Source: Rhodococcus rhodochrous (GTDB lineage Bacteria > Actinomycetota > Actinomycetes > Mycobacteriales > Mycobacteriaceae). From it: a stretch of DNA of 64,000 nucleotides. Of the stretch, positions 5,440 to 37,475 are shown piece by piece (the first letter of the stretch is position 1; each line of letters starts with the position of its first letter). The notes under the pieces are model-generated. The model was given only the letters and a program-made list of their open reading frames with translations, made no database searches and was not told the DNA's origin. The translations under genes and the position numbers were made by a program. The DNA is taken from positions 682,001-746,000 of the forward strand of contig NZ_CP027557.1 in the NCBI RefSeq assembly GCF_014854695.1. Reading direction: 5' to 3'.

Positions 5440-5453
5440 TAGAACAGGTTCTA
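5440..5453. promoter_or_regulatory. KstR operator (perfect 14-mer)
   Basis: TAGAACAGGTTCTA matches the KstR consensus TnnAACnnGTTnnA at every fixed position. It lies in the 90-base gap between the divergent DUF35 gene (start 5430) and LLM oxidoreductase gene (start 5521), so one repressor site can control both. KstR is the TetR-type repressor of cholesterol catabolism, relieved by sterol-derived CoA thioesters. Confidence 0.88.
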
Positions 5454-12152: not shown

Positions 12153-12734
12153 TCAGCGGCGGACCAGGATCTTCAACAGCTCCTGGATCTGCGTGGCCGT
12201 GGGGGAGGGCAGGCTGTCGCGGCCGTACAGGAAGCCGATCCCCGCGTAGACGAGGGTGCCGGCGCGCAGCTCCGCTTCTTCCTCGCCGAAACCCAGTTCG
12301 AGGAAACAGTTTCGGACGACGGCCATGATGCGCTGGTCGAGTGCACGGACCGATTCGGCGACCTGCGGATCGCTGCGCGCCCACTCGCGCACCGCGACCT
12401 CGGCCTCCCAGGCGCGTTCGTCGACGAGCATCGCACCCATGTGGGCGAGCCGTTCGTCGACGGGCAGTTCTTCGAGGCTCGTCAGGCCGCGCGCGGCGTC
12501 GTTGTCCTGCGAGGTGTAGCGGGTGGCGATGGCCTTCATCAGGTCGTCGATGTCGGAGAAGTGCCAGTAGAAGCTACCTTTGGTGACTCCGAGTTCGTCG
12601 CACAGTCGCGAGATCTTCACGGCGCTGCGTCCTTCGGAGACGAGCAGGCGCAGACCCGCCTCGGTCCAGTCGTCGAGGGACAGCCGTGGTCGTCTGCCCG
12701 ACCGGCGACCACTCCTCGCCGGTTGCTCTGCCAC
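12153..12734 (-). CDS. TetR/AcrR family transcriptional regulator
   Basis: A 193-residue one-domain repressor. The basic N terminus (GRRSGRRPRLSLDDWTEAGL) is followed by the helix-turn-helix ISRLCDELGVTKGSFYWHFSD (about residues 41-61). The C-terminal part is an all-helical ligand domain. The start is GTG at 12732-12734; no ATG alternative fits. An 8-bp inverted repeat begins 14 bases upstream (12748-12773) and is its likely operator. It is not KstR, whose helix-turn-helix sequence differs. Its target is either itself, the lipase-like gene upstream (same strand, ending inside the operator), or the oxidative operon at 13705. Confidence 0.88.
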   Translation of the reverse strand: MAEQPARSGRRSGRRPRLSLDDWTEAGLRLLVSEGRSAVKISRLCDELGVTKGSFYWHFSDIDDLMKAIATRYTSQDNDAARGLTSLEELPVDERLAHMGAMLVDERAWEAEVAVREWARSDPQVAESVRALDQRIMAVVRNCFLELGFGEEEAELRAGTLVYAGIGFLYGRDSLPSPTATQIQELLKILVRR

Positions 12735-12747
12735 GGATGGTCACCTC

Positions 12748-12773
12748 GTCTCGATCGGGTCCGAAATCGAGAC
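12748..12773. promoter_or_regulatory. Candidate autoregulatory TetR operator
   Basis: GTCTCGAT (12748-12755) and ATCGAGAC (12766-12773) form perfect arms with a 10-base spacer, directly upstream of the TetR start codon. The outer arm touches the stop codon of the lipase-like gene. Confidence 0.55.
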
Positions 12774-13594
12774 TACATGCCCGAACCGGGCAGTGCCGTG
12801 AGGACGGCGTCGCGTGCCGAGCCGTCGCGGGGGAGTTCCCAATGGTGAACGCATGGTGACGAATCCGGCCCGGGAAGCGTGACCACGGTCGAGGTGGGCA
12901 GCGCTCCGTTCTCGGGTGGGACGACGAGTCCGTCGCAGCGGGAGACGATGTCGGTGTAGTCGATCCCGGCCGTGGGCACGCCGCGTGAGTGCAGGTCGCG
13001 TAGGAGATCCGATCCGGCGATGATCTCGCGGCATCCGGCACACAGGGGGTCGACGAGCGGCTTCTCGAGGGCGAGGACCGCGTCGTAGGTGCCGAGATCG
13101 CGGCTGGTCTGCTCGGCGGCGGCCAGTCCGGCGATCTCCGTGCCGTGCCACATCGGGCCGAGTGTGGTCAGCGATCGGACCCGATCGTTGCCGTGATCCT
13201 GCAGGTATCGCTGGGTGACGAGGGAACCGGCGCCGTGCGCCACGACGTCGACCGTGCACTGCGATCGCTGCCCGCACAGCTCGTCCAGGGCGTCGGCCAG
13301 GTCGCGTGCGCCCGCGTCGACGCTCCGCAGGCCGGCGAGGGGGATCGGGACATCGGTGCCCGCCGGTTGGCCCCAGGTGACGGGGACGGTGCAGAAACCG
13401 GCTCCGGTGAGGTCGGCGCGCAGATCGGACCACACGTCCGGAGTGCTCGCGAGGTCGTGGACGAGTGCCACAGCAGCGTCTGCGCCGGAGCACGGCGCAG
13501 GGCTCGGATCGGCCGCTGCGGGCGCCGGAGCCACCGCGGCGAGGGTGAGAACAGCGACCGCCGAAACCATCGCCGAGCAGGGGGATCGAGTCAT
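12773..13594 (-). CDS. Secreted class-2 lipase-like protein lacking the nucleophilic Ser
   Basis: A 273-residue protein with a Sec signal peptide (hydrophobic residues about 8-28, AAADPS cleavage region), then an alpha/beta-hydrolase domain of the lipase class 2 type. The nucleophile elbow that should read AHSxGG reads VVAHGAGSLV, with Gly121 in place of the catalytic Ser. The acid (YTDIVSRCDGLVVP) and the His near the C terminus (CVHHWELPRDGS) are still present. Five or more cysteines suggest disulphides. The start has AGGAG five bases upstream. It may be a non-catalytic binding protein, or active through another residue. It is divergent from the multicopper oxidase gene. Confidence 0.82.
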   Translation of the reverse strand: MTRSPCSAMVSAVAVLTLAAVAPAPAAADPSPAPCSGADAAVALVHDLASTPDVWSDLRADLTGAGFCTVPVTWGQPAGTDVPIPLAGLRSVDAGARDLADALDELCGQRSQCTVDVVAHGAGSLVTQRYLQDHGNDRVRSLTTLGPMWHGTEIAGLAAAEQTSRDLGTYDAVLALEKPLVDPLCAGCREIIAGSDLLRDLHSRGVPTAGIDYTDIVSRCDGLVVPPENGALPTSTVVTLPGPDSSPCVHHWELPRDGSARDAVLTALPGSGM

Positions 13595-13624: not shown

Positions 13625-13639
13625 ACCATACCGTATGGT
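13625..13639. promoter_or_regulatory. Candidate operator between lipase-like gene and oxidative operon
   Basis: ACCATAC-C-GTATGGT is a perfect 7-bp inverted repeat around a single central base. It lies 30 bases upstream of the lipase-like start and 66 bases upstream of the multicopper oxidase gene. Compact palindromes of this type are typical of TetR-family repressors. It does not resemble the arms at 12748-12773. Confidence 0.55.
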
Positions 13640-13704: not shown

Positions 13705-15504
13705 ATGCAGAGACTCACCCGTAGAACCCTTCTCGCCGGGCTCGCCGCAGGAACCGGTGCGGTGCTTCTCGGTGGCCGAGCGTTCGCGGACGGGCCGGAC
13801 ATCTCCCGCCCCCTGTTGTTCCACTCCCCACGACTCGAACCCTTCGTCGACGGCCTGCCCGTCCTGCCGCGTCTGGACTCGTCGTCCTACCGGATCGACG
13901 CCGTCAGCACGATGCACAGCTTCCACCGCGACCTTCCGCCCGGTCCCGCTCTCGCCTACGGCGACAACACCTACGGCGGACCGACTCTCGTGGCGCACCG
14001 CGGGCAGGAGACGTCGATCGAGTACCGCAACCGCATCGACGCGCATCCCTTCGCCGTCGACTTCGACACCTCGCTGCACGGTCTGAGCGAACGCGACCGC
14101 ACCGACGTCCCCACCTCGATGCACCTGCACGGTGGGGTCACGCCTCCGGAATTTGACGGCAACCCCGAGCAGATCTCCCGGCCCGGACAGGGATTCACGT
14201 ACCGCTTCCCGAACCGTCAGGACGCGACGACGCTGTGGTACCACGACCACGCCATGGCCGTCACCCGCCTGAACGCCTACGCGGGACTGGCCGGCATGTA
14301 CCTGCTCCGCGACGACTACGACACCGGACTGCCCGGCAACCCGCTGGGCCTGCCCACCGGCGAGTTCGAACTCGATCTGGTGCTGCAGGAGAAGATCGTC
14401 AACGGCGACGGTTCGCAAAGCATCCGTTCCACCCCGATCGTCCCGCAGGGTCGCTGGGAGGGCGGCGCCGTCGGCGACGTCGGCGTCGTCAACGGCAGGA
14501 TCTGGCCCGAGGCCCGGGTCGCGCGCGGGCTCTACCGGGTCCGGCTGCTCAACGCGGCGTCGTTCAGCATCTGGGACCTGCACTTCTCCAACGGCATGCC
14601 GTTCTGGGTGATCGGCATGGAAGGTGGCCTGCTCGATGCGCCGGTTCCCACGACCCGCGTGCGACTGTCGCCCGGCGAACGCGTGGACCTGCTCGTCGAC
14701 TTCGCGCAGCTCGACGCGGACGCCACCGTCGAATTGCGCAACTCCGAACCCGCCGCACCGCAGGCCGCGCAGATCGGTGCCGTGCTCATGCCGCTGTTCA
14801 TGCGCTTCCGAGCCGAATCCGGCCGCGGGTTCACCGGTCCGGTCCCGGACCGCCTGCGCGGCGGCCCCGGTCTTCCACCCGCGGTCGGGCCGATCCCGGT
14901 GCCGCAGAACGTACGGAACGTATCGCTGAGCCAGCCCTCGGAGGTGCGGATCCCGCCGTCGATCATGTCGCTGAACAACCTGATGTACCACAGCACCGAC
15001 ATCGAGATGCCGCGTCAGGGCACCGTCGAGCAGTGGAACATCGTCAACGCGACGCCCGACCCGCACCCGATCCACCTGCATCTGGTGCACTTCCGCGTTC
15101 TGGGACGGCAGGCGATCAACACCCTCGCGATGTGTGCGCGGCAGCCGCAACCGCCCATCGGGCTCAAGTGGACGCCCGATCCCGACCCGTACGTCGTCGA
15201 ACCGATGCGGGGACCGGAGCCGTGGGAGACCGGCTACAAGGACACGGTCGTCTGCGATCCGAACTCGGTGACCCGCATCATCGCGTACTTCCCGACCGCC
15301 GACGAACTCGGCTTCGACCCCGACGCGACGTTCTCGCGCGCGGTGCACACCTTCGATCCGCACCGCGCCGGCCACGGCAAACACGGTGACCACGCCGACC
15401 ACGGCGACACTGCCGGCGGCGACCTGCAGGGATATGTGTGGCACTGCCACATCCTCGACCACGAAGACCACGACATGATGCTCAAATACCGGACGGTGAC
15501 ATGA
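13705..15504 (+). CDS. Tat-exported multicopper oxidase
   Basis: A 599-residue three-cupredoxin oxidase. It begins MQRLTRRTLLAGLAAGTG with a twin-arginine signal, so it is exported folded with copper. Copper ligands are complete: HLHGG (His140, His142), WYHDHAM (His180, His182), HPIHLHLVHF in the third domain, and HCHILDHEDHDMM at the end (His580, Cys581, His582, His586, axial Met591). A His-rich segment (HGKHGDHADHGD) precedes the last motif and could bind extra copper. The layout resembles CotA/phenoxazinone-synthase types that oxidise phenols. It is the first gene of a seven-gene operon and overlaps the next gene by 4 bases. Confidence 0.9.
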   Translation: MQRLTRRTLLAGLAAGTGAVLLGGRAFADGPDISRPLLFHSPRLEPFVDGLPVLPRLDSSSYRIDAVSTMHSFHRDLPPGPALAYGDNTYGGPTLVAHRGQETSIEYRNRIDAHPFAVDFDTSLHGLSERDRTDVPTSMHLHGGVTPPEFDGNPEQISRPGQGFTYRFPNRQDATTLWYHDHAMAVTRLNAYAGLAGMYLLRDDYDTGLPGNPLGLPTGEFELDLVLQEKIVNGDGSQSIRSTPIVPQGRWEGGAVGDVGVVNGRIWPEARVARGLYRVRLLNAASFSIWDLHFSNGMPFWVIGMEGGLLDAPVPTTRVRLSPGERVDLLVDFAQLDADATVELRNSEPAAPQAAQIGAVLMPLFMRFRAESGRGFTGPVPDRLRGGPGLPPAVGPIPVPQNVRNVSLSQPSEVRIPPSIMSLNNLMYHSTDIEMPRQGTVEQWNIVNATPDPHPIHLHLVHFRVLGRQAINTLAMCARQPQPPIGLKWTPDPDPYVVEPMRGPEPWETGYKDTVVCDPNSVTRIIAYFPTADELGFDPDATFSRAVHTFDPHRAGHGKHGDHADHGDTAGGDLQGYVWHCHILDHEDHDMMLKYRTVT

Positions 15505-16676
15505 CTTCCACCAGTTCCACCACGACCCGAGACCACTTCCAGCGCATCCCGTACGAACCGGCGAACGACGGTCGCGTCGAGATGCACTCCGGGCTCAGCC
15601 GCCACTACCCGACGCTGCACGGCAACCTCGTCGCGCAACCCGGGTACTCGAAGGACGTCGGTGTGGTCATGTGCCACCCGGCCTCGAACTTCCTGAGCCA
15701 CTTCCTGCTCCGCGCCTTCGCCGAAGCAGGCGTCCCCGCAATGGGACTCAACACCCGCTACTCGTCCAACGAACCGGCACTCATCATGGAGCGGGCCGCC
15801 TTCGACCTCGGCACCGGAGTGCGGTGGATGACCGACGAACTCGGCTTCGAGAAGGTCGTACTCCTCGGGTTCAGCGGCGGCGGGTCGCTCGCGTCGTTCT
15901 ACCAGTCGCAGGCGCAGAACTCGACCGTGACGACCACACCCGCGGGCGACCCGGCACCGTTCGCCGAGGCGAACCTGCGACCGGCCGACGCCCTGATGCT
16001 CGTCGGCGCGCACCCCGGCCGAGCACGCGTTCTCCGGCACTGGATCGACGGCGCGGTCACCGACGAATCCGACCCCTACGCCACCGATCCCGATCTCGAC
16101 CTCTACGCCCCCGGGCGCACGGCACCACTCGATTCCGAATGGGTGCAGAGGTACCGCGACGCGCAGCTCGCCCGCATGCGCCGCATCGACGCGTGGGCGC
16201 TCGAGCAACTCGCCGACCTCGAACGCACCGGCGCCTCCGATCGCGGCTTCGTCGTGCACCGCACCGTCGCGGATCCGCGCTTCGTCGACCTGAGCCTCGA
16301 CCCGAGCGACCGCGCACTCGGCTCCATGTACGGAGATCCGAAGGCGGCCAACACCGCCGCCGGTGGACTGGCCCGCTTCGTCACGGTGCGCAGCTGGCTC
16401 AGCACGTGGAGCGTCGACCACACCCACGCCGACGCACTCACCGACCTCCGCAACGTCACCACCCCGACGATGGTGATGAGCCTGCTCGGAGACCAGGCGG
16501 CCTTCGCCGAGGATTCCCGGCTGATGTACGACGCGCTGGCGGGCACCCACAACGAACTGATCGAGATGCGGAACCTCAACCACTATCTCGTGGATCAACC
16601 GGACGGTCTCTCCGACGTCGTCGGACGACTGGTCGAGTGGATCCGCCGAACGGTACTCGAGGAGGTATCGGCATGA
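15501..16676 (+). CDS. Alpha/beta hydrolase
   Basis: A 391-residue hydrolase without a signal peptide. The elbow VVLLGFSGGGSLASFYQ carries the nucleophilic Ser; a late Asp (MSLLGDQAAFAEDSR) and a His (EMRNLNHYLVDQPDG) complete a likely triad. The region between is longer than usual and probably forms a lid. It overlaps its neighbours on both sides by ATGA, so it is translated together with the multicopper oxidase and the DUF2236 protein. It is likely to cleave an ester, thioester or C-C bond in an intermediate of this operon's substrate. The precise subfamily is not recognised. Confidence 0.82.
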   Translation: MTSTSSTTTRDHFQRIPYEPANDGRVEMHSGLSRHYPTLHGNLVAQPGYSKDVGVVMCHPASNFLSHFLLRAFAEAGVPAMGLNTRYSSNEPALIMERAAFDLGTGVRWMTDELGFEKVVLLGFSGGGSLASFYQSQAQNSTVTTTPAGDPAPFAEANLRPADALMLVGAHPGRARVLRHWIDGAVTDESDPYATDPDLDLYAPGRTAPLDSEWVQRYRDAQLARMRRIDAWALEQLADLERTGASDRGFVVHRTVADPRFVDLSLDPSDRALGSMYGDPKAANTAAGGLARFVTVRSWLSTWSVDHTHADALTDLRNVTTPTMVMSLLGDQAAFAEDSRLMYDALAGTHNELIEMRNLNHYLVDQPDGLSDVVGRLVEWIRRTVLEEVSA

Positions 16677-17950
16677 CCCGAACACTCGCCGGTCCCGGAC
16701 GCACCGCACAGGACCGATGCCCGAGCGCCTTCCCCTACTGGCAGGCGCTGGAGAAGCCCGGGGTGAAGCGCACCCGCAACCTCGTCCGACGGCTCACCGG
16801 CTTCGACTTCCTGCCCACCGACGAACAGGCCCGGGCCCTGTGCAACGACCTGTTCAGCGGCGATCCCACGGCGGAGCGCTTCGTCGACGAGGTCTACCAC
16901 GGTGAACTCGGGCCGAAGAAGACCCGCGAGATGCTCGACAAGGCACTCGTCGACGGCATCGACTCGCTCGACGACGTGCCCGACGCGATGAAGGCCCTGT
17001 TCGAGGAGTTCGAGACCGTGCCCGACTGGGTGCAGCCCGAACTCGTCGAGCAGGGTGCCGCGATCTGGCGTCGCTGGGGCACGATGCTGTTCAGCTTCGC
17101 GGGCGCCGAGACCCTCGAGATCTACACCGAGGCAGCCGTCGCGACACCGCTGTCGCTCGCCGGAGGTTATGCCGGCGACAACGCTCTGCGACGTTTCCTC
17201 GAGACCTGCCGGTTCTGGATCGACGTATCCGAACCCGGCGCGCTGCTCGCCCCGGGTTCGAAAGGGCGGGCCACCGCGCTGAAGGTCCGCGTGATGCACG
17301 TGTCCGTGCGCTCACGCGTCGCGAAACACCCCGAATGGGACATCGCCAAGTGGGGACTGCCGATCAGCCAGACCTACATGCTGCTCACCCTCATCGCCGG
17401 CAGCCTCACCCCGGGTCTGGCCCTGTGGACCCTCGGCTACCACACCACCCCGCGAGAGATCCGCGCGCTCATCCACTTCCAGAAGTACATGGGCTACCTG
17501 CTCGGGGTGCGTATGCAGTGGTACCCCGAGACCATCGCCGACAGCATCCGCGCGCTCATGAGCACCGTGATCTCCCGCTCGTACGACTCGGGTGAGCACG
17601 GCAAGGAACTCATCGAGTCCTACCCGCAGGCGTTCGCCCCGCGCGACGGGCACCGCGGCCTGAAGAGACTGCGGGAGCACTACAACTTCCGCATCAACTC
17701 GGTGTACTCGGCGATGTTCATGGGGCCGGGCACCCGACGCAAGTACTCGATGCCGAAAGTGCTTCCCTGGATGATCATCCCGATCGTCCGCTTCCCGCTC
17801 ATCACCGCGATGGAACTCACCCGGCGGTTCGTCCCCGGCGCGGCCGGCGTGCACGAGAAGATCATGTGCGCCCATCGCGAGAACTGGTACCGCGCCCAGA
17901 TGGAAGGGCGCGAAGCACAATTCGACGCCAGCGGAGCACTCCGTCGCTGA
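16673..17950 (+). CDS. DUF2236 oxygenase (MpaB / latex-clearing-protein-like)
   Basis: A 425-residue, mostly helical protein with the DUF2236 signature: RVMHVSVR with His209 at the expected haem-ligand position, then WDIAKWGLPISQTYMLLTL, and YMGYLLGVRMQWYPETIAD. The family includes Lcp, a b-type haem dioxygenase that cleaves polyisoprene, and MpaB, which cleaves a farnesyl side chain of a prenylated phenol. Unlike secreted Lcp there is no signal peptide. A hydrophobic stretch near residues 355-375 (VLPWMIIPIVRFPLI) may tether it to the membrane. It is coupled to the hydrolase upstream. An oxidative cleavage of an isoprenoid-like or fatty chain is a reasonable expectation. Confidence 0.85.
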   Translation: MTRTLAGPGRTAQDRCPSAFPYWQALEKPGVKRTRNLVRRLTGFDFLPTDEQARALCNDLFSGDPTAERFVDEVYHGELGPKKTREMLDKALVDGIDSLDDVPDAMKALFEEFETVPDWVQPELVEQGAAIWRRWGTMLFSFAGAETLEIYTEAAVATPLSLAGGYAGDNALRRFLETCRFWIDVSEPGALLAPGSKGRATALKVRVMHVSVRSRVAKHPEWDIAKWGLPISQTYMLLTLIAGSLTPGLALWTLGYHTTPREIRALIHFQKYMGYLLGVRMQWYPETIADSIRALMSTVISRSYDSGEHGKELIESYPQAFAPRDGHRGLKRLREHYNFRINSVYSAMFMGPGTRRKYSMPKVLPWMIIPIVRFPLITAMELTRRFVPGAAGVHEKIMCAHRENWYRAQMEGREAQFDASGALRR

Positions 17951-17998
17951 TCGGCCCGGACAGTCCCGCCCCACTAGACCTCGTACGGAGAGAACTCG

Positions 17999-19051
17999 AT
18001 GACCCTACACATCGTCGAAGCATGGAACGGCCCCGGACGCCGCGACGGTGAGATCACCGCCGTGGAGGCCGCCGACAACGGTGCCCACCCGTCCACCGAC
18101 AAGCACGCCTTCGAACACTGGTACTTCGACGCCCATCTCGACGACGGACGGATCGTCGTGGCGATGATCCAGACCCGGGAACTGGTGCACCGCAAGCCCG
18201 GTGTGGAGATCCACGTCTACAGCGCGGACGGCAAGCGACGCGAAGCGAGCCGGTCGTACACCGACGCCGACCTCTCGGTGTCCACCGAACGGTGCGACGT
18301 GCGCGTCGGTGAGAGCTTCGCGAAGCTGATCGGCGAGGAGGACGGGCTGCCCGTCTACCGCGTGTCGGTGTCCGAAGGCGACCTCGCCTTCGACCTGACC
18401 TTCACCGCGGAGGTCCCGCCGTGGATGCCCGGTCGCGGCCGGACCAGCTACAACGAACGCGAATTCTTTGCGTGGGTCGTCGGCGCGCCGCGAGCGCGAG
18501 TCGCGGGGACGGTGACGGTGGACGGGAAGTCCACCGAGGTCACCGGTCGCGGCTACCACGACCACAACTGGGGCGTCGGCGACATGAAGCGCCTCATCGA
18601 CAAGTGGTACTGGGGCCGGCTGTACACCGAGGACTTCACCCTCGTCTACGCCATGGTGAACACCCAGAAGAAGTACGGATCGCACTGGTCGCAGCCGGTG
18701 ATGGTCGCGCAGGGGCGCGAGGTGGTCCTCAGCAACGGCGAGGTGGAACTGACGGAGGGGCCGATCGTGCACAACGCGGTCGCCGACCGCACCTACCCGG
18801 CGTGGATCCGCCTCCGCATCCCGGGCTCGCTCGACGTCAAGCTCACCGTCCGCGAGATCGTGCACGCCCACAACCTGCTCGAGGACGTTCCACTCGCGTC
18901 GAGCAGGTTGCTCAAGCCTCTCGTCAACCGGCTCGTCGGTCATCCCGGTTACTTCCGCTTCCGGTCGGATTTCACGATGACGGTGACCGTCGACGGAACC
19001 GATCACGAGCGTTCGGGTTCGACGCTGCACGAGATGGTCGCGTTGACATGA
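17999..19051 (+). CDS. CrtC/AttH-like lipocalin-fold protein
   Basis: A 350-residue beta-rich protein resembling the carotenoid 1,2-hydratase/hydroxyneurosporene synthase (CrtC) and AttH group. Landmarks are [19 protein letters not shown] near the N terminus, then [21 protein letters not shown] and [18 protein letters not shown] in the middle. The family has two lipocalin-like barrels that hold hydrophobic, often terpenoid, ligands. Members act as hydratases, cyclases or pericyclases. It follows the DUF2236 gene after 48 bases (the largest gap in the operon) and overlaps hmgA by ATGA. No carotenoid genes are nearby, so hydration or binding of a terpenoid side chain is inferred from fold and context only. 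Confidence 0.78.
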
Positions 19052-20391
19052 GCGAGCGCGCGGACGTCGGTGTGGAGCCCGGCTTCGCGGGCATCGAGTA
19101 TCTGCACGGCTTCGGCAACGAGCACCACAGCGAGGCCGTTCCGGGTGTGCTTCCGTGGGGACAGAATTCGCCCCAGCGGGTCGCGTACGGGCTCTACGCC
19201 GAACAACACTCGGCCACCGCGTTCACCGAGCCCCGCGAGATCAACCGCCGCACATGGACGTACCGGATCATGCCGTCCGCCGCGCACGGTCCCTTCGAGC
19301 GGATCGACGACGCCGGCTGGGTGTCGGCACCCGACGCCGGGGGAGTGCTCACCCCGAACCGGTTGCGATGGGATCCGCAGCCGGAACCGGCACCGGGCAC
19401 GGACTTCCTCGACGGCGTGACGACCTACGCAGTCAACGGGGACGTCCGCGCCCGCACCGGCGTCGCCGTCCATCTGTACGCGGCGTCGCAGTCGATGACC
19501 GACCGTTACTTCGTCGACGCCGACGGAGAACTGCTGTTCGTCCCGCAGGACGGCGCGCTGCTGCTGTGCACCGAACTGGGACGGCTGCTCGTCGAACCCG
19601 GTGAGATCGCGGTGATCGGACGAGGTCTGCGGTTCCGCGTGGATCTGGTGAGTGAGAAGGCGACCGGTTACCTGCTCGAGAACTACGGGGCCGCCCTGGC
19701 CCTGCCGGAACTCGGCCCCATCGGCGCGAACGGTCTCGCCCACGCCCGCGACTTCCTGTACCCGACGGCCTGGTACGAGGACCGTTCGGGCACGGTGCAA
19801 CTCGTGCAGAAGTTCGGTGGGCACCTGTGGGCCACCGAACTCGACCACTCGCCCCTCGACGTCGTCGCCTGGCACGGCACGCACGGTGCCTACAAGTACG
19901 ATCTGGGCCGCTTCAACGCGATGACCACGGCCGGCTGGGACCATCCCGATCCGTCGATCTTCACCGTGCTCACCTCGCCCACCCCGATTCCGGGGCAGGC
20001 CAATGTCGACTTCTGTGTCTTCCCCGACCGCTGGGTGGTCGGGGAGCACACCTTCCGGCCGCCGCACTTCCACCGCAACGTCATGACCGAGTTCATGGGA
20101 CTCGTTCGTGGACAGCACGACTCGAAGGCGGAAGGATTCGTCCCGGGCGGCGCGTCGCTCCACAACCAGTGGGGCGCTCACGGACCCGACGTCGAGACCT
20201 TCGATCTCGCGACGTCGGCCGAACTGAAGCCGGTCAAGCTCGTGAACACCCTGTCGTTCATGTTCGAGACGAGACTCGCCCTCTCCGTCACCGACGCGGC
20301 CCATCGCGCAGCGCATCGCCAGCCGAACTACGACTCCTCGTGGTCCGGCCTCACCCGACGCTTCACCCCACCTTCTCCCCAGGAGTCGTGA
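19048..20391 (+). CDS. hmgA: Homogentisate 1,2-dioxygenase
   Basis: A 447-residue protein of full normal length and clear HmgA sequence ([20 protein letters not shown] at the N terminus). It opens the ring of homogentisate to maleylacetoacetate with non-haem iron. By alignment to the human enzyme the iron ligands fall on His342, Glu348 ([11 protein letters not shown]) and His378 (AHGPD), with the acid-base His at 299 ([11 protein letters not shown]); all are present. The maleylacetoacetate isomerase and fumarylacetoacetase that usually accompany it are not in this operon. It overlaps the CrtC-like gene by 4 bases and the dehydrogenase by 1, so it is integral to the operon. The substrate may be a substituted homogentisate. 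Confidence 0.93.
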
Positions 20392-21866
20392 TGACCGAAC
20401 TGTCCACCCCCGCACCCGTCGTCGTACCCGACCCGCAGCTGCGGATCGGCGGCCGGGCCGTGCCCGCCCGTTCGGGTGCCCACTTCTCGTCGATCAACCC
20501 GGCGACGGAAGAGGCCGTCGCCGAGGTCGCGGCGGGTGGGGCCGCCGACATCGACGCGGCCGTCCTCGCCGCGCGCGACACCTTCGAATCCGGTGTCTGG
20601 TCGCGGATGGCCGGTGCCGAACGCGGCCGGATCCTCTCCCGCGCCGCCGACCTCATCGAGCAGCACGCCCCCGAACTGTCGGCGCTCGAGACCGCGGAGA
20701 TGGGCAAGCTCTACGCCGACACCGTCGCCGGGGACATCCCCGTCGCCGCGGCGTCGTTCCGGCACTACGCAGGCTGGGCCGACAAGATCGCCGGTGAGGC
20801 GATGATCCTGCCCGATGTGGGTCCGCAGCACCGCTTCGGATTCACCCTGCGCCAGCCCCTCGGTGTGGTCGGTGCGATCACTCCGTGGAACAACCCGACG
20901 GTCGTCGCGGCCTGGAAGATCGCCCCGGCCCTGGCCGCCGGATGCTCGGTGGTCGTCAAGCCCGCCGAGGACGCTTCGCTGTCGACCCTGAAGCTCGCCG
21001 ACCTGCTCGCCGAGGCCGGAGTACCGGACGGCGCGTTCAACGTCGTGCCCGGTCTCGGTCCCGAAGCCGGTGCTGCGCTGGCCGCCCACGAGGGCATCGA
21101 CAAGATCACCTTCACCGGCAGCCCGGCCGTCGGGAAGACCATCACCTCGCTCGCCGGCGAGAAGTTCCGGAAGGTGACCCTCGAACTCGGCGGCAAGGCG
21201 CCGCAGCTGATCTTCCCCGACGCCGACCTCGAGGCGTCGCTGCCGTGGATCGCGATGGGCAACTTCTACCACCAGGGTCAGGTGTGTGCCGCCGGCACGC
21301 GCGTGATCGTGCACGAGTCGATCGCCGATCAGGTCGTCGAGGGACTCGTCGAGTTCGCCCGCGGAGCGGTGATCGGTGATCCCTTCGACGCGTCGACGAC
21401 GCAGGGCACCATCGTCAACCGCAAGCAGCTCGACCGCATCCTCGGCTACATCGAGAAGGGCAAGAACGAAGGCGCTCAACTGCTGACCGGCGGGTCGCGG
21501 GTGGGGGAGCGCGGTTTCTTCGTGGAGCCGACCGTCTTCCGCGGCACCAACGACCTCACCATCGCCCGCGAGGAGATCTTCGGCCCCGTCGCCACGGTCA
21601 TCACCTTCAAGACCACCGAGGAGGCCGTGCAGCTGGCGAACGCCACGAAGTACGGTCTCAACGCGTTCGTCTTCAGCCAGAACCTGTCGACCGTGCACAG
21701 CGTGATCCCGCAGTTGCGTGTGGGCACGGTGTGGGTCAACGGCTGGGGTGTCCCCGATCCGGCACTACCCTGGGGTGGACGTGACGCGAGCGGCATCGGG
21801 CGTGAACTGGGCCGCAGCGGGCTCGAAGCGTTCACCGAGGAGAAGACGGTTCACCTCGGTTACTGA
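20391..21866 (+). CDS. Aldehyde dehydrogenase (NAD(P)-dependent)
   Basis: A 491-residue ALDH-superfamily enzyme with all catalytic elements: PWNNP (about 165-169), FTGSPAVGK for the dinucleotide, general base Glu265 in LELGGK, and nucleophile Cys299 in FYHQGQVCAAGTR. It oxidises an aldehyde to the acid. The start codon overlaps the hmgA stop by one base (TGATG), and the CoA-transferase gene follows 19 bases later. An aldehyde made by oxidative chain cleavage upstream in the operon (DUF2236 oxygenase) followed by CoA transfer would be a coherent order of steps, but this is inferred. Confidence 0.9.
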   Translation: MTELSTPAPVVVPDPQLRIGGRAVPARSGAHFSSINPATEEAVAEVAAGGAADIDAAVLAARDTFESGVWSRMAGAERGRILSRAADLIEQHAPELSALETAEMGKLYADTVAGDIPVAAASFRHYAGWADKIAGEAMILPDVGPQHRFGFTLRQPLGVVGAITPWNNPTVVAAWKIAPALAAGCSVVVKPAEDASLSTLKLADLLAEAGVPDGAFNVVPGLGPEAGAALAAHEGIDKITFTGSPAVGKTITSLAGEKFRKVTLELGGKAPQLIFPDADLEASLPWIAMGNFYHQGQVCAAGTRVIVHESIADQVVEGLVEFARGAVIGDPFDASTTQGTIVNRKQLDRILGYIEKGKNEGAQLLTGGSRVGERGFFVEPTVFRGTNDLTIAREEIFGPVATVITFKTTEEAVQLANATKYGLNAFVFSQNLSTVHSVIPQLRVGTVWVNGWGVPDPALPWGGRDASGIGRELGRSGLEAFTEEKTVHLGY

Positions 21867-21885
21867 CCAGAGGACGGAAGAGGCA

Positions 21886-23136
21886 GTGACACAAGTCGAG
21901 TCGACACAAGGCGAGTCGACACAAGGCGAGTCGCAGGCAGCGGGAGCGCTGGCGGGCATCAGGGTGCTCGAACTGGGAACCCTGATCGCCGGTCCGTATG
22001 CAGGACGTCTGCTCGGCGACATGGGTGCCGACGTCATCAAGATCGAGGATCCGAAGCGTCCCGACCCGCTCCGCACCTGGGGACAGGGTGAGCGGGACGG
22101 GCATCGCTACTTCTGGACGGTGCACGCGCGCAACAAGCGTTGCGTCACCCTCGATCTTCGGGCGCCCGACGGGCAGGAACTGTTCCGGCGTCTCGTCGCC
22201 GAGTCCGACGTGGTGGTCGAGAACTTCCGTCCCGGCACGCTCGAGAAGTGGGGGCTCGGCTACGACGTGCTCTCCGAGATCAATCCGGGCATCGTGTTGG
22301 CCCGCGTCTCCGGTTACGGGCAGACCGGCCCCAAGGCCGGGCAGGCCGGTTACGCGTCGGTGGCCGAGGCGGAGAGCGGGTTGCGGCACCTCAACGGATA
22401 TCCCGGCCAGGCACCCCCGCGACTCGCGCTGTCCCTCGGCGACTCCCTCGCCGGGATGTTCGCCGTGCAGGGCATCCTCGCCGCGTTGCTCGGCCGCGAA
22501 CGGACCGGACGCGGGCAGGTCGTCGACGTGGCGCTCACCGAGGCGTGCCTCGCGATCCAGGAATCGGTGATCCCCGACTACGACGTCGCAGGGGTCGTCC
22601 GCGGCCCCTCCGGTACCCGCCTCGAGGGCATTGCCCCGTCGAACCTGTACCGGACGTCCGACGACATGTGGATCGTCATCGCCGCCAACCAGGACACGGT
22701 CTTCCGTCGCCTGTGCGCGGCGATGGAGCGCCTCGAGCTCGCCGACGACCCGCGCTTCGCCGACCATCTCGCGCGTGGCGTGAACCAGGACGAGCTCGAC
22801 GCCCTCATCGGTGAGTGGGCGGCGACGTGGACGCTCGACGACCTGCTGGCGCATCTGTCGTCGTCGGGTGTGGTGTCCGGGCCGGTGAACACGGTCGCGG
22901 AGGTCGTCGCCGATCCGCAGTTCCAGGCACGGGACATGATCGTCCCGCATCACGACGAGCGCACCGGCGCAGACGTACTCGGCCCGGGTGTGGTGCCGAC
23001 GCTCACCGGGACGCCGGGTTCGGTGCGTCGCGCCGGCCCGCCCGTCGCGGGATACGACAATGCGGCGGTCTACGGCGAGATCCTCGGACTGAGCGACATC
23101 GAGCAGAAGGAACTCCGCGAGCGGGGAATCATCTAG
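21886..23136 (+). CDS. Class III (CaiB/BaiF-type) CoA-transferase
   Basis: A 416-residue member of the formyl-CoA transferase family: GIRVLELGTLIAGPYAGRLLGDMGADVIKIE (landmark from residue 24 on), NKRCVTLDLR, VVVENFRPGTLEKWGLGYD, and RVSGYGQTGPK. The start is GTG at 21886. Where FRC-type enzymes have the aspartate that forms the acyl anhydride, this protein reads GYASVAEAESGL with Ala157, as some subgroups do. The first 16 residues contain a duplicated STQGE unit encoded by a 15-bp direct repeat. As last gene of the oxidative operon it probably activates the acid product as a CoA ester. A long palindrome follows the stop. Confidence 0.87.
   Translation: MTQVESTQGESTQGESQAAGALAGIRVLELGTLIAGPYAGRLLGDMGADVIKIEDPKRPDPLRTWGQGERDGHRYFWTVHARNKRCVTLDLRAPDGQELFRRLVAESDVVVENFRPGTLEKWGLGYDVLSEINPGIVLARVSGYGQTGPKAGQAGYASVAEAESGLRHLNGYPGQAPPRLALSLGDSLAGMFAVQGILAALLGRERTGRGQVVDVALTEACLAIQESVIPDYDVAGVVRGPSGTRLEGIAPSNLYRTSDDMWIVIAANQDTVFRRLCAAMERLELADDPRFADHLARGVNQDELDALIGEWAATWTLDDLLAHLSSSGVVSGPVNTVAEVVADPQFQARDMIVPHHDERTGADVLGPGVVPTLTGTPGSVRRAGPPVAGYDNAAVYGEILGLSDIEQKELRERGII
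21898..21927 (+). repeat. In-frame 15-bp tandem duplication
   Basis: GAGTCGACACAAGGC occurs twice in direct succession (21898-21912, 21913-21927), followed by a third partial copy. It encodes ESTQG-ESTQG-ES in the non-conserved N terminus of the CoA-transferase and is probably a slippage expansion. Confidence 0.8.
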
Positions 23137-23258: not shown

Positions 23259-23272
23259 TAGAACACGTTACA
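23259..23272. promoter_or_regulatory. KstR operator (perfect 14-mer)
   Basis: TAGAACACGTTACA matches TnnAACnnGTTnnA at every fixed base. It lies 30 bases upstream of the ATG at 23303 and puts this NMO-type gene in the sterol regulon independently of the oxidative operon before it. Confidence 0.86.
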
Positions 23273-24987: not shown

Positions 24988-26199
24988 TCAGTTCGGCGGC
25001 GACAGAAGCCCTTCCAGGCTCGTCGCCGAATAACCACCGTCGCGGCACAACTGTACCGTGGGGGCACGGCGCCCCGGGTACTCGATGCACGGCATGTTCC
25101 GTGCCCCGCGCACCGCGATGGGGGAGTCCGCCGGCAGCTTGCAGTACAGATCGGGCGGGGTGTCGGGCACGTCGAACTCGGTGGGTGAGCGCCGCTGTTC
25201 CGGCGGCAGGAAGCCGGTGATGCACGGCGGCGGGTCGTTGAAGGTCGCGGTGAAGTAGGTGTTCTGCGAGGGGTTGTCGACATTGGGCAGACCCGCCGAC
25301 TGGGTCGACGCCATGATCGACGGGAACAGCACCAGCATCTGTTCGAGCGACGGCCGGTACACCGCGGCGACCTGCTCGACGGTGACCAGATTGGCGAGCA
25401 GCAGGGGGAGGGTCGGTTCGGCCTCCTCGAACAGCGCCTGCACCTGCGCGGCGGCAGGGGCCGTCACGCCGAGGAGGGTGCGCACGTCGCTGTCGGAGTC
25501 GCGCAACTGTGCGGTGGTGCCCGCCAGGGAGGACGCCCATCGGGCGATCGCATCCGACGACGCGACCTGCGTGTCGAGCAACGGACCGACCTGATCGATC
25601 AGTGCCGCGGTGCTGTCCGCGCTCGCAGCGGCCTCGGCGCTCACCGCCGCGCCGGCCTCGACGAGGATCCGCAGGGCGTCGCCGGAATCGGCCACCGCCG
25701 TGTGGGTCTCGTCGAGCAGCAGGGCGAGGCGGTCGGGTCCCACGGACTGCAGCGTGGCGTCGAGCTGGTCGAGCGCACCGCCGATCGGTTCGGGCACGGA
25801 GATGCGATCGCGGGGAACGATCGACCCCGCGGTCAGATACGGGCCGTCCTCGCCGTCGGGCAGGAACTCGACGTACTGCTCGCCGATCGCCGACATGCTG
25901 CGGATCTGCGCCGCCGAATCGGCCGGCACCGGAACATCCGAGTCGAGCGAGAGAACCGCCTCGGCGCCGCTCGTGGTCATGGTCAGTGACGTCACCCGGC
26001 CGATCTCGATGCCGCGGTAGGTGACGTTCGCCGAGGGATACAGACCCCCGGCGTCGGCGAGGTCGAGACGCACCTCGTAGCGTCCCACCCCGAACAGGGC
26101 GGGCACCTCGACGATGAACAGCGCGACGATCAGCACCGCCGCGATCCCGACCGAGAAGAACACCGCCAGTTTGCGGCGCAGCACCGCAGCCGGGCTCAT
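24988..26199 (-). CDS. mceF: MceF of second mce operon
   Basis: A 403-residue Mce-family protein. A single N-terminal membrane helix (about residues 11-33) is followed by ALFGVGRYEVRLDLADAGGL, where the MCE domain begins (to about residue 115). A helical stretch follows, and then a Cys-containing C terminus with DPPPCITGFLPPEQRRSPTEF and NMPCIEYPGRRAPT, as in Mce4F. Its C terminus is about 65 residues shorter than that of the Mce4F at 46664-48076. Mce proteins form a periplasm-spanning channel that carries lipids to a YrbE/MceG ABC permease. The start overlaps mceE by 4 bases. Confidence 0.9.
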   Translation of the reverse strand: MSPAAVLRRKLAVFFSVGIAAVLIVALFIVEVPALFGVGRYEVRLDLADAGGLYPSANVTYRGIEIGRVTSLTMTTSGAEAVLSLDSDVPVPADSAAQIRSMSAIGEQYVEFLPDGEDGPYLTAGSIVPRDRISVPEPIGGALDQLDATLQSVGPDRLALLLDETHTAVADSGDALRILVEAGAAVSAEAAASADSTAALIDQVGPLLDTQVASSDAIARWASSLAGTTAQLRDSDSDVRTLLGVTAPAAAQVQALFEEAEPTLPLLLANLVTVEQVAAVYRPSLEQMLVLFPSIMASTQSAGLPNVDNPSQNTYFTATFNDPPPCITGFLPPEQRRSPTEFDVPDTPPDLYCKLPADSPIAVRGARNMPCIEYPGRRAPTVQLCRDGGYSATSLEGLLSPPN

Positions 26200-27290
26200 C
26201 GGGTCGGCTCCGACACTGGCGGGACGAGCAGCGACACCGGATCCGGCACGGGTCGCCCGCCGCCGGTGAGTGCGTTCTCGAAGGGCGTGCCGAGCAGCAG
26301 TGCGTTCTCGAGGGTCGGCAGGGTGAGGTCGAGGATGACCGTGCCGTTCGCGTAGTCGCCGCGCACCGCGTTGCGGTAGGTGTCGATGGGGAACGGGAAG
26401 GTCAGCAGGTAGCGCAGCGACTCGGTGAGCGAGTCGCCCGCCGACGCGAGCGAGGCCAGCACCGGTTCGAGATCACGCAGGTTCGCGACGACGTCGTCGC
26501 CGCTCGCCTCGACGACCTCGTTCGCGACGCGCCCGAACTGCCCGAGCGCATCGGCGGCGCGGGTCAGGTCGTCGCGCTGGGTGGACAACACCTCCATGGC
26601 GGGCGCGAGATCGTCCGTCGCCGCCGCGATCTCGGTGTTGTGCTCGGCGACCTCGACGGCGAGTGCGTCGAGCGATTCCATCGCGCTCACGATCTGCTCC
26701 TTCTGGCCGTCCAGCCCGGCGAGCACCGCGTCGAGGCGGGTGAGCAGGGCCCGCACCGACTCCTGCCGTCCGTCCATCGCCCGGTTGAGTTCGCGGGTGA
26801 TCTCCTGGGCTTGGGCGAGGCCACCGCCGCTGAGCACCAGCGACAGCGACGACAGGGTCTGCTCGGTGGTGGGGAACGCACCCGCCCGCTCGAGGGGGAT
26901 GACGTCGCCGTCCCCGAGCCGGCCACGGGCGGGTTCGGCGAGCGGGGGAGAGAGTTCGACGTGGGCGGACCCGAGCAGGCTCGTCTGCCCGATCTTCGCG
27001 ACCGTGTTCTCCGGAAGCACCGTGCTGCCGTCGACCATCACCGTCACGAGCGCATGTCCGTCGCCGAGCCGCAGGTCGGCGACCCGCCCGACGGTGACGT
27101 CGCCGACGCGGACCCGTGAATTGCGTTCGAGGGTCGTGACGTCGGGCATCTCGATGGTCACGGCGAACGCGTCGTCGCCGCGACCGTGCGTGCCGGGAAG
27201 GGGCAGGCTGTTCAGGCCGCGCCACTCGCACCCGGCGGTCAGGGCCAGGCAGGCGAGGACACCGACCGCGCGCAGGACTCGTGTTCTCAC
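26196..27290 (-). CDS. mceE: MceE lipoprotein of second mce operon
   Basis: A 364-residue Mce lipoprotein starting at GTG 27288-27290. The signal sequence ends in the lipobox LTAGC, with the lipidated residue at Cys21, followed by EWRGLNSLPLPGTHGRGDDA, the usual start of MceE. The MCE domain (about 40-125) and a long helical region with PTTEQTLSSLSLVLSGGGLAQ follow. MceE is the lipid-anchored member of the hexameric lipid-transport assembly. The start codon overlaps the mceD stop (GTGA), and its own stop overlaps mceF, so the operon is tightly coupled. Confidence 0.9.
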   Translation of the reverse strand: MRTRVLRAVGVLACLALTAGCEWRGLNSLPLPGTHGRGDDAFAVTIEMPDVTTLERNSRVRVGDVTVGRVADLRLGDGHALVTVMVDGSTVLPENTVAKIGQTSLLGSAHVELSPPLAEPARGRLGDGDVIPLERAGAFPTTEQTLSSLSLVLSGGGLAQAQEITRELNRAMDGRQESVRALLTRLDAVLAGLDGQKEQIVSAMESLDALAVEVAEHNTEIAAATDDLAPAMEVLSTQRDDLTRAADALGQFGRVANEVVEASGDDVVANLRDLEPVLASLASAGDSLTESLRYLLTFPFPIDTYRNAVRGDYANGTVILDLTLPTLENALLLGTPFENALTGGGRPVPDPVSLLVPPVSEPTR

Positions 27291-28504
27291 GGCGCCCCCG
27301 GGGAGAGCAGATCGGCCAGTGAGGCCGGCGACGGCGCACCGGGCGCCGGCATCAACTCGGGCTCGGTGTAGACGAGCTGGTCGGGCAATGCCCCCACGCC
27401 GCGCGTCGGGTTGAGGCGCACGGGTGGGTAGTCCATCGCGAGCAGCGGCAGGATCGGGCCGAGATACTGCACGCACAACTCCGACGCGGTGTGCGCGTCG
27501 ACCTGCTCGGCCGCGGCGAGCGCAGAGCAGACGAACTGGGCAGGATTGGCGAAGTTGGTCAGCGACAACGCCGAGACCACCGTGTTGTGCGCGGGCTGAT
27601 AGATGCCCTGCAGGTTCGACAACGCCGTCGGTGCGACGTGCAGTACCTGCGCGATCCCGTCGCGCTGCGCCGCCAGGGTCTCGGTCAGTGCGGCCGTGCG
27701 ATCGACGGTCGTGTCGACGCGTTCGCGGTTGTCGCGGACGAACCGCTCGACGTCGACGAGGACGGCATCGAGTCCCGCCAGTGCGGCGCCCATGTCGTCG
27801 CGGTTCGCGTCGAGGATCTCGGTGACGGACGCGAGCCGGTCGTGGAAGGAGACGATCTGGTCGCCGCTCATCGACAGCGCCTCGACGAAGACCTGCAGGT
27901 TGCCGAGGGTGCCGAACAGGTCGTGCCGGCCGTCGGAGATCGTGCGCATCGCCGTTGCGAGCTGCTGCAGGCTGTCGCGCAGGGCGGGGCCGTGTCCCTC
28001 GGCGTTGGCGGCCGCAACGTCGAGGACCTCACCGAGTGCCCCCTGCGGGTCGGTGTCGTCGGGCCCCAGTTCGGTCGTCAGTCGCGTCAGTTGTTCGGTG
28101 ATCTCGTCCCATTCGACCGGGACCGCGGTGCGTTCGACGGGAATCGTTGCTCCCACCGGCAGTTCCGGTCCTCCCGTGTGCGGTGGGGTGAGCTGGACGA
28201 AGCGGGCGGAAACCAGAGTGGGGGCGACGATCGCGGCCTGTGCGTCGGCGGGGATGCGGCGCTCGGAGTCGATGTCGAAGCGCACGAGGACGCGATCGCC
28301 GCGCGGTTCGATCTTCGTCACACGCCCGACCTCGACCCCCATGATGCGCACGTCGTCACCCACGTACAGGCCACGGCTCGAGGTGAATTCGGCCGCGTAT
28401 TCGTCGGCCGACCGCCACGGCGCGACGGTGAACGACACCACCGCGACGACGGCGAGAAGCAGGATCGGGACACCCCACGAGATCAGGGGACGCAGTCGCG
28501 TCAC
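27287..28504 (-). CDS. mceD: MceD of second mce operon
   Basis: A 405-residue Mce protein. A membrane helix at about residues 9-28 is followed by the MCE domain (YAAEFTSSRGLYVGDDVRIMGVEVGRV and ALVSARFVQLTP-type strand), a helical core, and a Pro/Ala-rich C terminus (PAPGAPSPASLADLLSPGAP). Sequence order and motifs (VPVEWDEITEQLTRLTTELGP) match Mce4D at 44128-45453. It overlaps both neighbours by 4 bases. It is expected to form the channel with MceA-F; the lipid carried is unknown. Confidence 0.9.
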   Translation of the reverse strand: MTRLRPLISWGVPILLLAVVAVVSFTVAPWRSADEYAAEFTSSRGLYVGDDVRIMGVEVGRVTKIEPRGDRVLVRFDIDSERRIPADAQAAIVAPTLVSARFVQLTPPHTGGPELPVGATIPVERTAVPVEWDEITEQLTRLTTELGPDDTDPQGALGEVLDVAAANAEGHGPALRDSLQQLATAMRTISDGRHDLFGTLGNLQVFVEALSMSGDQIVSFHDRLASVTEILDANRDDMGAALAGLDAVLVDVERFVRDNRERVDTTVDRTAALTETLAAQRDGIAQVLHVAPTALSNLQGIYQPAHNTVVSALSLTNFANPAQFVCSALAAAEQVDAHTASELCVQYLGPILPLLAMDYPPVRLNPTRGVGALPDQLVYTEPELMPAPGAPSPASLADLLSPGAP

Positions 28505-29520
28505 GGTGTACCTCCCGGCGGCGTGATGCCGGCCTTCTCGAGCGCGGCGGTCAGGGCCGGCTCGATGATCTGCATGGGCAACAGGTTCTGGATGTACGAG
28601 TTGAAGAACGGACCGGACGCGACGGCCTCGCCGAGTTCGGTCGCGTACGGGCCCAGCCGCTCGATGGCCAGGGCGATGTTGTCGCGGTTGCGTTCGAGGA
28701 TCCCGAGGACGGCGTTCAGCTTGCCCAGGGTGGGTTCGAGCTGGGCCTCGTTGTCGGCGACGAGATTCGAGATCTGGACCGACAACGCATCGACGTTCGC
28801 GAACAGGGTGTCGAGAGCGGCTCGGCGGCGGTGCAGTTCGCCGAGGATGCGGTCGGCGTCGACGATCAGCGCGTCGATCGCGTCGCTGCGCTCGGCGAGG
28901 ACCGCGGTGACCTGTTCGGCGTGCGCGAGGAGCGCCCGCAGGGATTCGTCCCGCGACGCGACGGTCTCGGACAGTCGCCGCACACCGTCGAGCGCCGCGC
29001 CGACGTCGTCGGGCGTCTCGCGCAGGGTGTCGGACAGTACTTCCATCGACTCGCGCAGTTGCTCGGTGTCGATCGCAGCGGCGGTATCGGTGAGATCGCC
29101 GAGGGCGTCGGTCAACTGGTAGGGCGCGAGGGTGCGGTCGAGGTCGATGGTGGCGCCGTCCTCGAGTCGTCCCGGACCGGCGGGGCGCACGCGCAGGTTG
29201 CGTGCCCCGAGCGCGGTGGCGGTGGCGATCTCGACGGTGGTGTCGGTTCCGAGGACGACCGCCCGGTCGACGGTGAACGTGACGGCCACGGCGTCGTGGT
29301 CGATGTCGATGTCGGTCACCCGCCCGGCGTCCTTGCCCGCGACCTGCACGGTGTCGCCGGTGTTCAGGCCACCGGCGTCGACGAATCTCGCCCGGTAGGT
29401 CGTGCCGCCGTCGAGGAACGGCAGGGAGCGGATGTTCAGGGCGCCGAGCACGAGCACGACGAGCACGATCGTGCCGACGACGCCGACACGCACGGGATTC
29501 ATCTCGCGGAACTGGGTCAT
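28501..29520 (-). CDS. mceC: MceC of second mce operon
   Basis: A 339-residue Mce protein beginning MTQFREMNPVRVGVVGTIVL, with one membrane helix (about residues 11-29). The MCE domain YRARFVDAGGLNTGDTVQVAGKDAGRV follows, then long coiled helical repeats (LLAHAEQVTAVLAERSDAIDALI) and the conserved end ASGPFFNSYIQNLLPM. It is shorter at the C terminus than some MceC proteins, with no Pro-rich tail. The ATG overlaps the mceB stop by 4 bases. It is structurally equivalent to Mce4C at 43073-44131. Confidence 0.9.
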   Translation of the reverse strand: MTQFREMNPVRVGVVGTIVLVVLVLGALNIRSLPFLDGGTTYRARFVDAGGLNTGDTVQVAGKDAGRVTDIDIDHDAVAVTFTVDRAVVLGTDTTVEIATATALGARNLRVRPAGPGRLEDGATIDLDRTLAPYQLTDALGDLTDTAAAIDTEQLRESMEVLSDTLRETPDDVGAALDGVRRLSETVASRDESLRALLAHAEQVTAVLAERSDAIDALIVDADRILGELHRRRAALDTLFANVDALSVQISNLVADNEAQLEPTLGKLNAVLGILERNRDNIALAIERLGPYATELGEAVASGPFFNSYIQNLLPMQIIEPALTAALEKAGITPPGGTP

Positions 29521-33314: not shown

Positions 33315-33377
33315 GAATCCTCGCTTCTTCCACGGTCGCATCGACGAAACCGCGTCCCGACCTCTCGGGTGCGCCGA

Positions 33378-37461: not shown

Positions 37462-37475
37462 TGGAACGCGTTCTA
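37462..37475. promoter_or_regulatory. KstR operator (perfect 14-mer)
   Basis: TGGAACGCGTTCTA matches TnnAACnnGTTnnA throughout. It lies between the divergent fadE26 (start 37388) and fdxD (start 37521) and can repress both directions. Confidence 0.88.

Follow-up and report, generated by a model that had tools for sequence, protein, structure and literature searches.

Which compound is broken down by the seven forward-strand genes at positions 13705-23136 of a 64,000-nucleotide stretch of Rhodococcus rhodochrous DNA? The stretch, called the window below, covers C1:682001-746000 in the 6.09-Mb genome of this Rhodococcus-type soil actinobacterium. A first-pass annotation of the window had recognised there a multicopper oxidase (MCO), a hydrolase, a DUF2236 oxygenase, a CrtC-like protein, a homogentisate dioxygenase (HmgA), an aldehyde dehydrogenase (ALDH) and a class III CoA-transferase, assigned to no recognised pathway, and we confirmed all seven genes at these positions. 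We consider it probable that they belong to a TetR-controlled, Mce-fed catabolic operon for a lipophilic para-hydroquinone, in which the hydrolase replaces maleylacetoacetate isomerase and fumarylacetoacetase. The evidence that carries this reading, taken from the sequence, comprises the gene content, a putative operator, linkage to an Mce importer, the coupling of the hydrolase to HmgA, a tyrosine-to-histidine change in that HmgA, and a separate fumarylacetoacetase-HmgA pair elsewhere in the genome.

HmgA is coupled to a hydrolase and has no adjoining fumarylacetoacetase

The operon HmgA (19048..20391, + strand; HgmA_N/C) is a ring-cleavage dioxygenase that scores 601 bits against TIGR01015, above the curated cut-off of 511. 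All its iron ligands are present, as the first-pass annotation had held: H342, E348 and H378 (His331, Glu337 and His367 in Pseudomonas putida) are invariant in 21/21 sequences. In a family sample of 151 genomes, which underlies the family counts given here, an HmgA above this cut-off occurs in 21, and exactly the same 21 genomes hold the hydrolase (67-100% identity), with a start-to-start distance from HmgA of at most 3.8 kb; the co-occurrence of the two is far beyond chance. The hydrolase itself (15501..16676, + strand, 391 aa), to which we assign an alpha/beta fold, has no Pfam match. Its residues S125 (in GFSGGG), D331 and H361 are invariant in 20 aligned sequences and form, by our assignment, a candidate catalytic triad.

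The same coupling was seen when named genomes were scanned with a DUF2236 profile and the best 80 of 126 relatives were kept: hydrolase and HmgA are both present in 22/80 loci, both missing from 58/80, and never found apart. The 58 HmgA-less loci include eight with short flanks, and in the 31 HmgA-less genomes that were searched whole there was no hydrolase above 46% identity. On a DUF2236 tree of 79 rows (the window plus 78 of the 80 named loci), the HmgA label changes at least nine times on well-supported branches, and the hydrolase accompanies HmgA in 9/9 independent pairs (p 0.004). Loci L232 and L233 duplicate L084 and L085 and were counted once. Across the family, 93 hydrolase hits were recorded; an HmgA-family gene lies no more than 5 kb from each of the best 45 and from only one of the other 48, and 24 of these best 45 are ~40% identical hydrolases paired with a divergent HmgA-like protein. 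The simplest reading of this coupling is that the hydrolase acts on the product of the dioxygenase.

The usual partners of HmgA had been described as missing, which is correct for the locus: a full-length fumarylacetoacetase gene lies within 10 kb of the operon HmgA in 0/21 genomes, and no maleylacetoacetate isomerase was recognised among the seven genes, that family not having been searched for in the genome as a whole. It is not correct genome-wide, since the window genome carries a fumarylacetoacetase gene together with a divergent HmgA-family gene at 5.03 Mb (L114:7087-10348). Judging by its fumarylacetoacetase, this pair appears to serve tyrosine and homogentisate, and in view of it we rejected the idea of a tyrosine pathway broken by the local absence of that enzyme. 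All 58 places in the family with a full-length fumarylacetoacetase (one of which, G042, is below the family cut-off) lie within 5 kb of an HmgA-family gene, and such a pair exists elsewhere in 14/21 operon genomes, the window's included; the other 7/21 have none. These fumarylacetoacetase-linked HmgA-family genes score ~48 to 71 bits against the cut-off of 511 (53 bits for the protein at 5.03 Mb), and all 21 genes above the cut-off are of the operon type. A separate hmgA cluster with fumarylacetoacetate hydrolase is also described for R. ruber, in an excerpt of PMC6498646. The HmgA match contained one internal TAG in 5/12 rows (G146, G559, G560, G561 and G563); it is probably the normal stop codon of the gene, close to where the alignment ends, because an earlier match to G146 showed none.

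A substrate-contact tyrosine is replaced by histidine

According to an excerpt of PMC6337169, Tyr346 of the P. putida enzyme interacts with homogentisate and folds a loop over the active site. In the operon HmgA this position (P. putida numbering) is occupied by H357, and histidine was found in 32/32 distinct operon sequences checked; these comprise 21 family genomes and 11/19 named loci, the other eight apparently repeating family genomes, and three of the 22 named HmgA-positive loci (L129, L132 and L166), in which the gene call is short or missing, fall outside the count. Tyrosine occupies the position in 42/42 HmgA proteins of other families, in the P. putida and human enzymes, and in 24/24 of the fumarylacetoacetase-linked homologues examined (of 58). 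In a third type, represented by three hydrolase-linked proteins, the residue is Thr or Ala; the type II HmgA-like proteins (15 loci), which align only as far as the first iron ligand, enter no Tyr346 comparison. The exchange predicts, rather than proves, a changed HmgA substrate.

These observations bear on the alternative that survives best, namely a second ordinary homogentisate pathway for tyrosine- or phenylacetate-type acids in which the hydrolase would be the counterpart of fumarylacetoacetase. It would accommodate the TIGR01015 score and the intact iron ligands, the 7/21 operon genomes that have no full-length fumarylacetoacetase elsewhere, and an ALDH whose best NCBIfam match is the phenylacetaldehyde dehydrogenase StyD (608 bits, although below the cut-off of 800). 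We nevertheless judge it unlikely, since 14/21 operon genomes already have fumarylacetoacetase with an HmgA-family partner of its own, histidine occupies the Tyr346 position in every operon sequence checked, and such a pathway has no place for the MCO, the Mce importer, DUF2236 or CrtC. The operon shares with known homogentisate pathways an HmgA-family dioxygenase with all iron ligands and possible enzymes for the ring-fission product; it differs from them in having a Pfam-less alpha/beta hydrolase instead of an adjoining fumarylacetoacetase, in the Tyr346-to-His change, and in the addition of a secreted MCO, an Mce importer, DUF2236, CrtC, ALDH and CoA-transferase. The changed substrate-contact residue supports the earlier view that this is not ordinary tyrosine catabolism.

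A putative operator links the operon to an Mce importer

The seven genes do not make up the whole functional unit, which also takes in the divergent lipase-like and TetR genes, the operator at 13625 and, in relatives, an Mce importer. The TetR-family regulator (12153..12734, - strand, 193 aa; PF00440, 40 bits) is a probable local repressor, and the operon would be controlled through its putative target, ACCATACCGTATGGT, at 13625..13639. This site is a perfect inverted repeat, ACCATAC-C-GTATGGT, which sits between the lipase-like gene and the MCO gene, 65 nt ahead of the MCO start codon. Of the 151 family genomes, 12 contain the 15-mer, each at a single place and the window genome among them, as compared with 0 for the reversed control. 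Eleven of these 12 are operon genomes, and the remaining one, G066, is apparently the same genome as L127, where TetR, site, MCO, DUF2236 and CrtC occur without HmgA. Because the inner 13-mer and its reversed control are each found at one place in the window genome, the 13-mer alone is weak evidence. With up to two mismatches allowed, 48 sites were detected in 40/100 loci of relatives (1.88 Mb, some genomes being taken twice, once as family genomes and once as named loci), none of them within a called gene. Reading outward from these sites are the genes for the MCO, the hydrolase, DUF2236, TetR, the lipase-like protein, an Mce-associated protein and, in Tomitella, where the operator precedes the importer gene, YrbE. 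No match was present in twenty simple shuffles of the window, and no second match with up to three mismatches occurs elsewhere in the window.

Seven family genomes in which the MCO was at first not seen have an Mce operon ahead of the hydrolase. In six of these rearranged genomes the order is operator-MCO-YrbEA-YrbEB-Mce, with a divergent TetR gene and, in four, a divergent lipase-like gene as well; in the remaining genome (G103), a two-mismatch operator stands directly before YrbEA, and the MCO lies on the opposite strand behind a two-mismatch site of its own. Two opposite-strand genes separate Mce from the hydrolase in 5/7. As the operator precedes the importer genes in 7/7 rearranged genomes, the importer forms part of the operon's locus and regulon, and the placement of the operator before MCO-YrbE-Mce (six) or YrbE-Mce (one) agrees with the first-pass proposal that the substrate is probably hydrophobic. 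Mce genes are also found in 16/22 HmgA-positive as against 3/58 HmgA-negative named loci, a link that is weakened as an independent statistical signal and for which operator and gene order are the better basis.

The surroundings of the operon could suggest another reading, that of an accessory KstR/mce4 branch of steroid catabolism for an aromatised steroid or a sterol side-chain product. The region 24988-49301 is a steroid/mce4-type locus in which FadD17-, FadE26/27- and Hsd4A-like genes lie between two Mce operons; according to an excerpt of PMC6498646, a single Mce system of R. ruber includes FadD17, FadE27, FadE26, Hsd4A and SupAB. The nearer Mce operon (24988..33314, - strand; two YrbE and six Mce genes), which is convergent to the operon and homologous to that of the seven rearranged relatives, comes after FadE26/FadE27/FadD17-like genes that are themselves preceded by a KstR-like site at 37462. 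Exact KstR-like sites occur in the window only at 5440, 23259 and 37462, three as against 0.10 expected for the consensus. In the same scan of the window no such site precedes the operon, however; the site at 23259..23272 (+ strand) lies ahead of the nitronate-monooxygenase gene (23303) in the next transcription unit. The operon has its own operator instead, to which an Mce operon is linked in seven relatives that retain the operon. In steroid catabolism, moreover, it is HsaC that opens ring A, in catechol form, and this enzyme is not of the HmgA type. The operon resembles mce4 steroid loci in having an Mce importer beside lipid-catabolic genes, in a window that itself lies in such a locus, and differs from them in its own TetR and operator, the lack of a KstR-like site and its HmgA-type ring cleavage, and we regard a steroid branch as improbable.

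Nitronate-monooxygenase-like genes at 10936-12048 and 23303-24433 flank the operon in Rhodococcus, the upstream and downstream genes being 44-46% identical by tblastn in relatives. A plasmid search gave merely partial matches of low identity.

The operon combines two modules

As had been noted, the seven genes overlap by 1-4 bases at four of six junctions (4 nt at MCO/hydrolase, hydrolase/DUF2236 and CrtC-like/HmgA, and 1 nt at HmgA/ALDH); the remaining gaps are 48 nt from DUF2236 to the CrtC-like gene and 19 nt from ALDH to the CoA-transferase. The claim that they are one unit stands in so far as the genes work together and hydrolase and HmgA are never apart, but it fails as a strict statement: since in 58/80 loci DUF2236 is present, whether or not CrtC and MCO accompany it, while hydrolase and HmgA are both missing, we distinguish two modules, and strict indivisibility of the seven genes is ruled out. 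Free separation of the genes in related genomes, which the first-pass annotation had named as a ground for refutation, is thus seen for DUF2236, CrtC and MCO and not for the hydrolase-HmgA pair. Among the best 80 named loci, a TetR homologue is found in 68, CrtC in 59, MCO in 35, hydrolase in 22 and HmgA in 22, and DUF2236, mostly with CrtC, sits between the coupled hydrolase and HmgA.

Searches of 20 relatives by tblastn found hydrolase, DUF2236 and HmgA in 20/20, ALDH and CrtC in 19/20 (L055, from G057, ends at a contig end before both genes) and CoA-transferase in 12/20; the MCO was present in the first stretches taken from 13/20 and, after upstream DNA had been added, in the other seven. 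Within the genus, operon-type HmgA occurs in 12/18 genomes. The gene set is kept in relatives, related genera among them, but the exact gene order, proposed earlier as a point to check, is not, there being two arrangements, one with CrtC behind DUF2236 and one with CrtC behind ALDH or CoA-transferase.

A second operon type (L066, L068, L069, L071 and similar loci) pairs a ~365-aa Pfam-less HmgA-like protein with a ~40% identical hydrolase. Eleven of the 20 second-type loci fetched contain a CoA-transferase 64-72% identical to that of the window, and HMG-CoA-lyase-like, acyl-CoA dehydrogenase, APH-kinase and DUF6285 genes come next in some of them; the last three are presumably a trio like that of levulinate operons. 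In some relatives the CoA-transferase is followed by HMG-CoA lyase.

Were the locus an island (MCO, DUF2236 and CrtC under TetR) that detoxifies quinones or phenolic antimicrobials and has gained ring-degrading genes, this would explain the 58/80 loci with TetR and DUF2236 but without hydrolase and HmgA, as well as the repeated changes of the HmgA label on the DUF2236 tree. We consider it unlikely given the excess of Mce genes at HmgA-positive loci, weaker after correction for relatedness, and the downstream CoA-transferase or HMG-CoA lyase in some genomes, which suits growth better.

Signatures of the other enzymes

The enzyme signatures of the operon genes look intact. The MCO (13705..15504, + strand, 599 aa; PF07731/PF07732, Cu-oxidase_2/3) has a twin-arginine signal and four Cu-ligand motifs, and is PhsA-like, its best NCBIfam match being the o-aminophenol oxidase PhsA (209 bits, below the cut-off of 950). 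Its divergent neighbour (12773..13594, - strand, 273 aa) has zero Pfam or NCBIfam matches, and it is by our own reading that we describe it as a secreted, lipase-like protein with a signal peptide. Glycine takes the position of the nucleophile serine (AHGAGS) in the window and in 6/9 relatives examined, the pattern not being found in the other three, and the protein may bind rather than cleave a lipid.

The DUF2236 protein (16673..17950, + strand, 425 aa) is a haem-oxygenase-like member of the MPAB_Lcp_cat family (PF09995, 62 bits against a gathering score of 23) and is 91% identical to its counterpart in Rhodococcus sp. CH91. Residues R174, T178 and H209 align with Lcp R164, T168 and H198, which an excerpt of PMC5522427 describes as haem-site residues, H198 being the haem ligand, and are invariant in 20/20 sequences (of 21, L049 being left out as its gene was not called). 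The protein thus shares with Lcp and MpaB the PF09995 domain and the counterparts of these residues. It differs from Lcp in its low similarity (36 bits to 5o1m/5o1l) and, by our count along the alignment, in Glu177 for Lys167 and Thr158 for Glu148. On direct reading by eye, no signal peptide is seen in its N-terminus, MTRTLAGPGRTAQDR.

The CrtC-like calycin protein (17999..19051, + strand, 350 aa; PF07143, 34 bits) is the sole PF07143 match in the genome. Its YxDHNWG motif, invariant in 37 aligned sequences, resembles the YxEKNWG motif that an excerpt of PMC4963081 gives for tocopherol cyclase. The protein differs from the carotenoid 1,2-hydratase CrtC in falling below the NCBIfam equivalog cut-off (27 against 400 bits), and PDB searches returned 7a0q as the only match. 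It has no PF14249 match, and its identification as a PF14249 tocopherol cyclase-like protein was rejected, the sole match to that family in the genome (E <= 1) being another gene. That gene, outside the operon at C1:4137640-4138185 (L234; 4.14 Mb), encodes a tocopherol-cyclase-like protein (PF14249, 62 bits).

The ALDH (20391..21866, + strand, 491 aa; PF00171, 552 bits) has the motifs LELGGK and GQVCAA. The CoA-transferase (21886..23136, + strand, with a GTG start taken at 21886; PF02515, 417 bits) is nearest to succinate-glutarate CoA-transferase (NF052585, 276 bits, below the cut-off of 750) and has a GDS motif at what we take to be the position of the catalytic Asp of formyl-CoA transferase.

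A proposed pathway and its likely substrates

On the reading that we prefer, a TetR-controlled operon for a lipophilic para-hydroquinone, the secreted MCO would oxidise a phenol or hydroquinone outside the cell, and the Mce system, whose genes stand behind the operon's operator in relatives, would import the compound. To judge from their families, the DUF2236 haem-oxygenase-like and CrtC-like proteins would attack the hydrophobic, probably isoprenoid, portion of this compound, and the ALDH would oxidise the resulting aldehyde. The altered HmgA would then open a para-hydroquinone ring with a substituent other than the plain acetate chain, and the hydrolase, because its coupling to HmgA is obligatory, is proposed to cut the ring-fission product directly by C-C hydrolysis, standing in for maleylacetoacetate isomerase and fumarylacetoacetase. 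The CoA-transferase would finish the acids, in some relatives with a retro-Claisen cleavage by the HMG-CoA-lyase-like enzyme.

Prenylquinones or tocopherol relatives fit these steps and are the most likely substrate class. Plants make plastoquinone, tocotrienols and tocopherols from homogentisate. More specifically, the locus could be a dedicated growth pathway for plant prenylated hydroquinones, with capture and import by MCO and Mce, cutting and hydration of the chain by DUF2236 and CrtC, and opening of the ring by an HmgA of altered pocket and its own C-C hydrolase; this version we put forward only tentatively.

Several points weigh against the proposed reading of the operon. It is built on sequence, from which substrate, product and expression are all inferred. 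The Tyr-to-His change may be one inherited event, as the 32 operon HmgA proteins are close kin, and turnover of homogentisate is conceivable, since the operon HmgA still exceeds the homogentisate cut-off of TIGR01015. No solved structure was matched when the hydrolase profile was compared with the PDB. The isoprenoid reading is weak because DUF2236 is a large family here, with 16 members in the window genome. Corrected for relatedness, the link between Mce and HmgA is weak (median p 0.06), and the genes from MCO or YrbEA through CrtC are co-directional in only 2/7 of the rearranged variants. The window's own convergent Mce operon is preceded by no operator match with up to three mismatches; a four-mismatch match at 33377, before its YrbE, is one of ten at chance level. 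CoA-transferase, finally, is present in only 9/18 HmgA-positive loci with complete flanks.

Significance

Plants produce large amounts of prenylquinones and tocopherols, and no bacterial gene set that opens the rings of these compounds is known to us. Among the matches listed in the open-licence PMC literature, we found no description of a tocopherol- or prenylquinone-degrading operon, nor of HmgA with Mce or DUF2236; the component families are known, and the pathway and the pairing of HmgA with a hydrolase without fumarylacetoacetase were not found described there. For annotation the locus carries a warning, in that the curated homogentisate-dioxygenase model picks the operon type and misses the probable enzyme of the tyrosine pathway. 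What these genomes hold is a catabolic operon for ring cleavage in which the pairing of enzymes appears to be new and the substrate is probably new, and it offers a small, testable system with a distinctive operator, two enzymes that are retained or lost as a pair, and a single residue from which a different ring-cleavage substrate is predicted.

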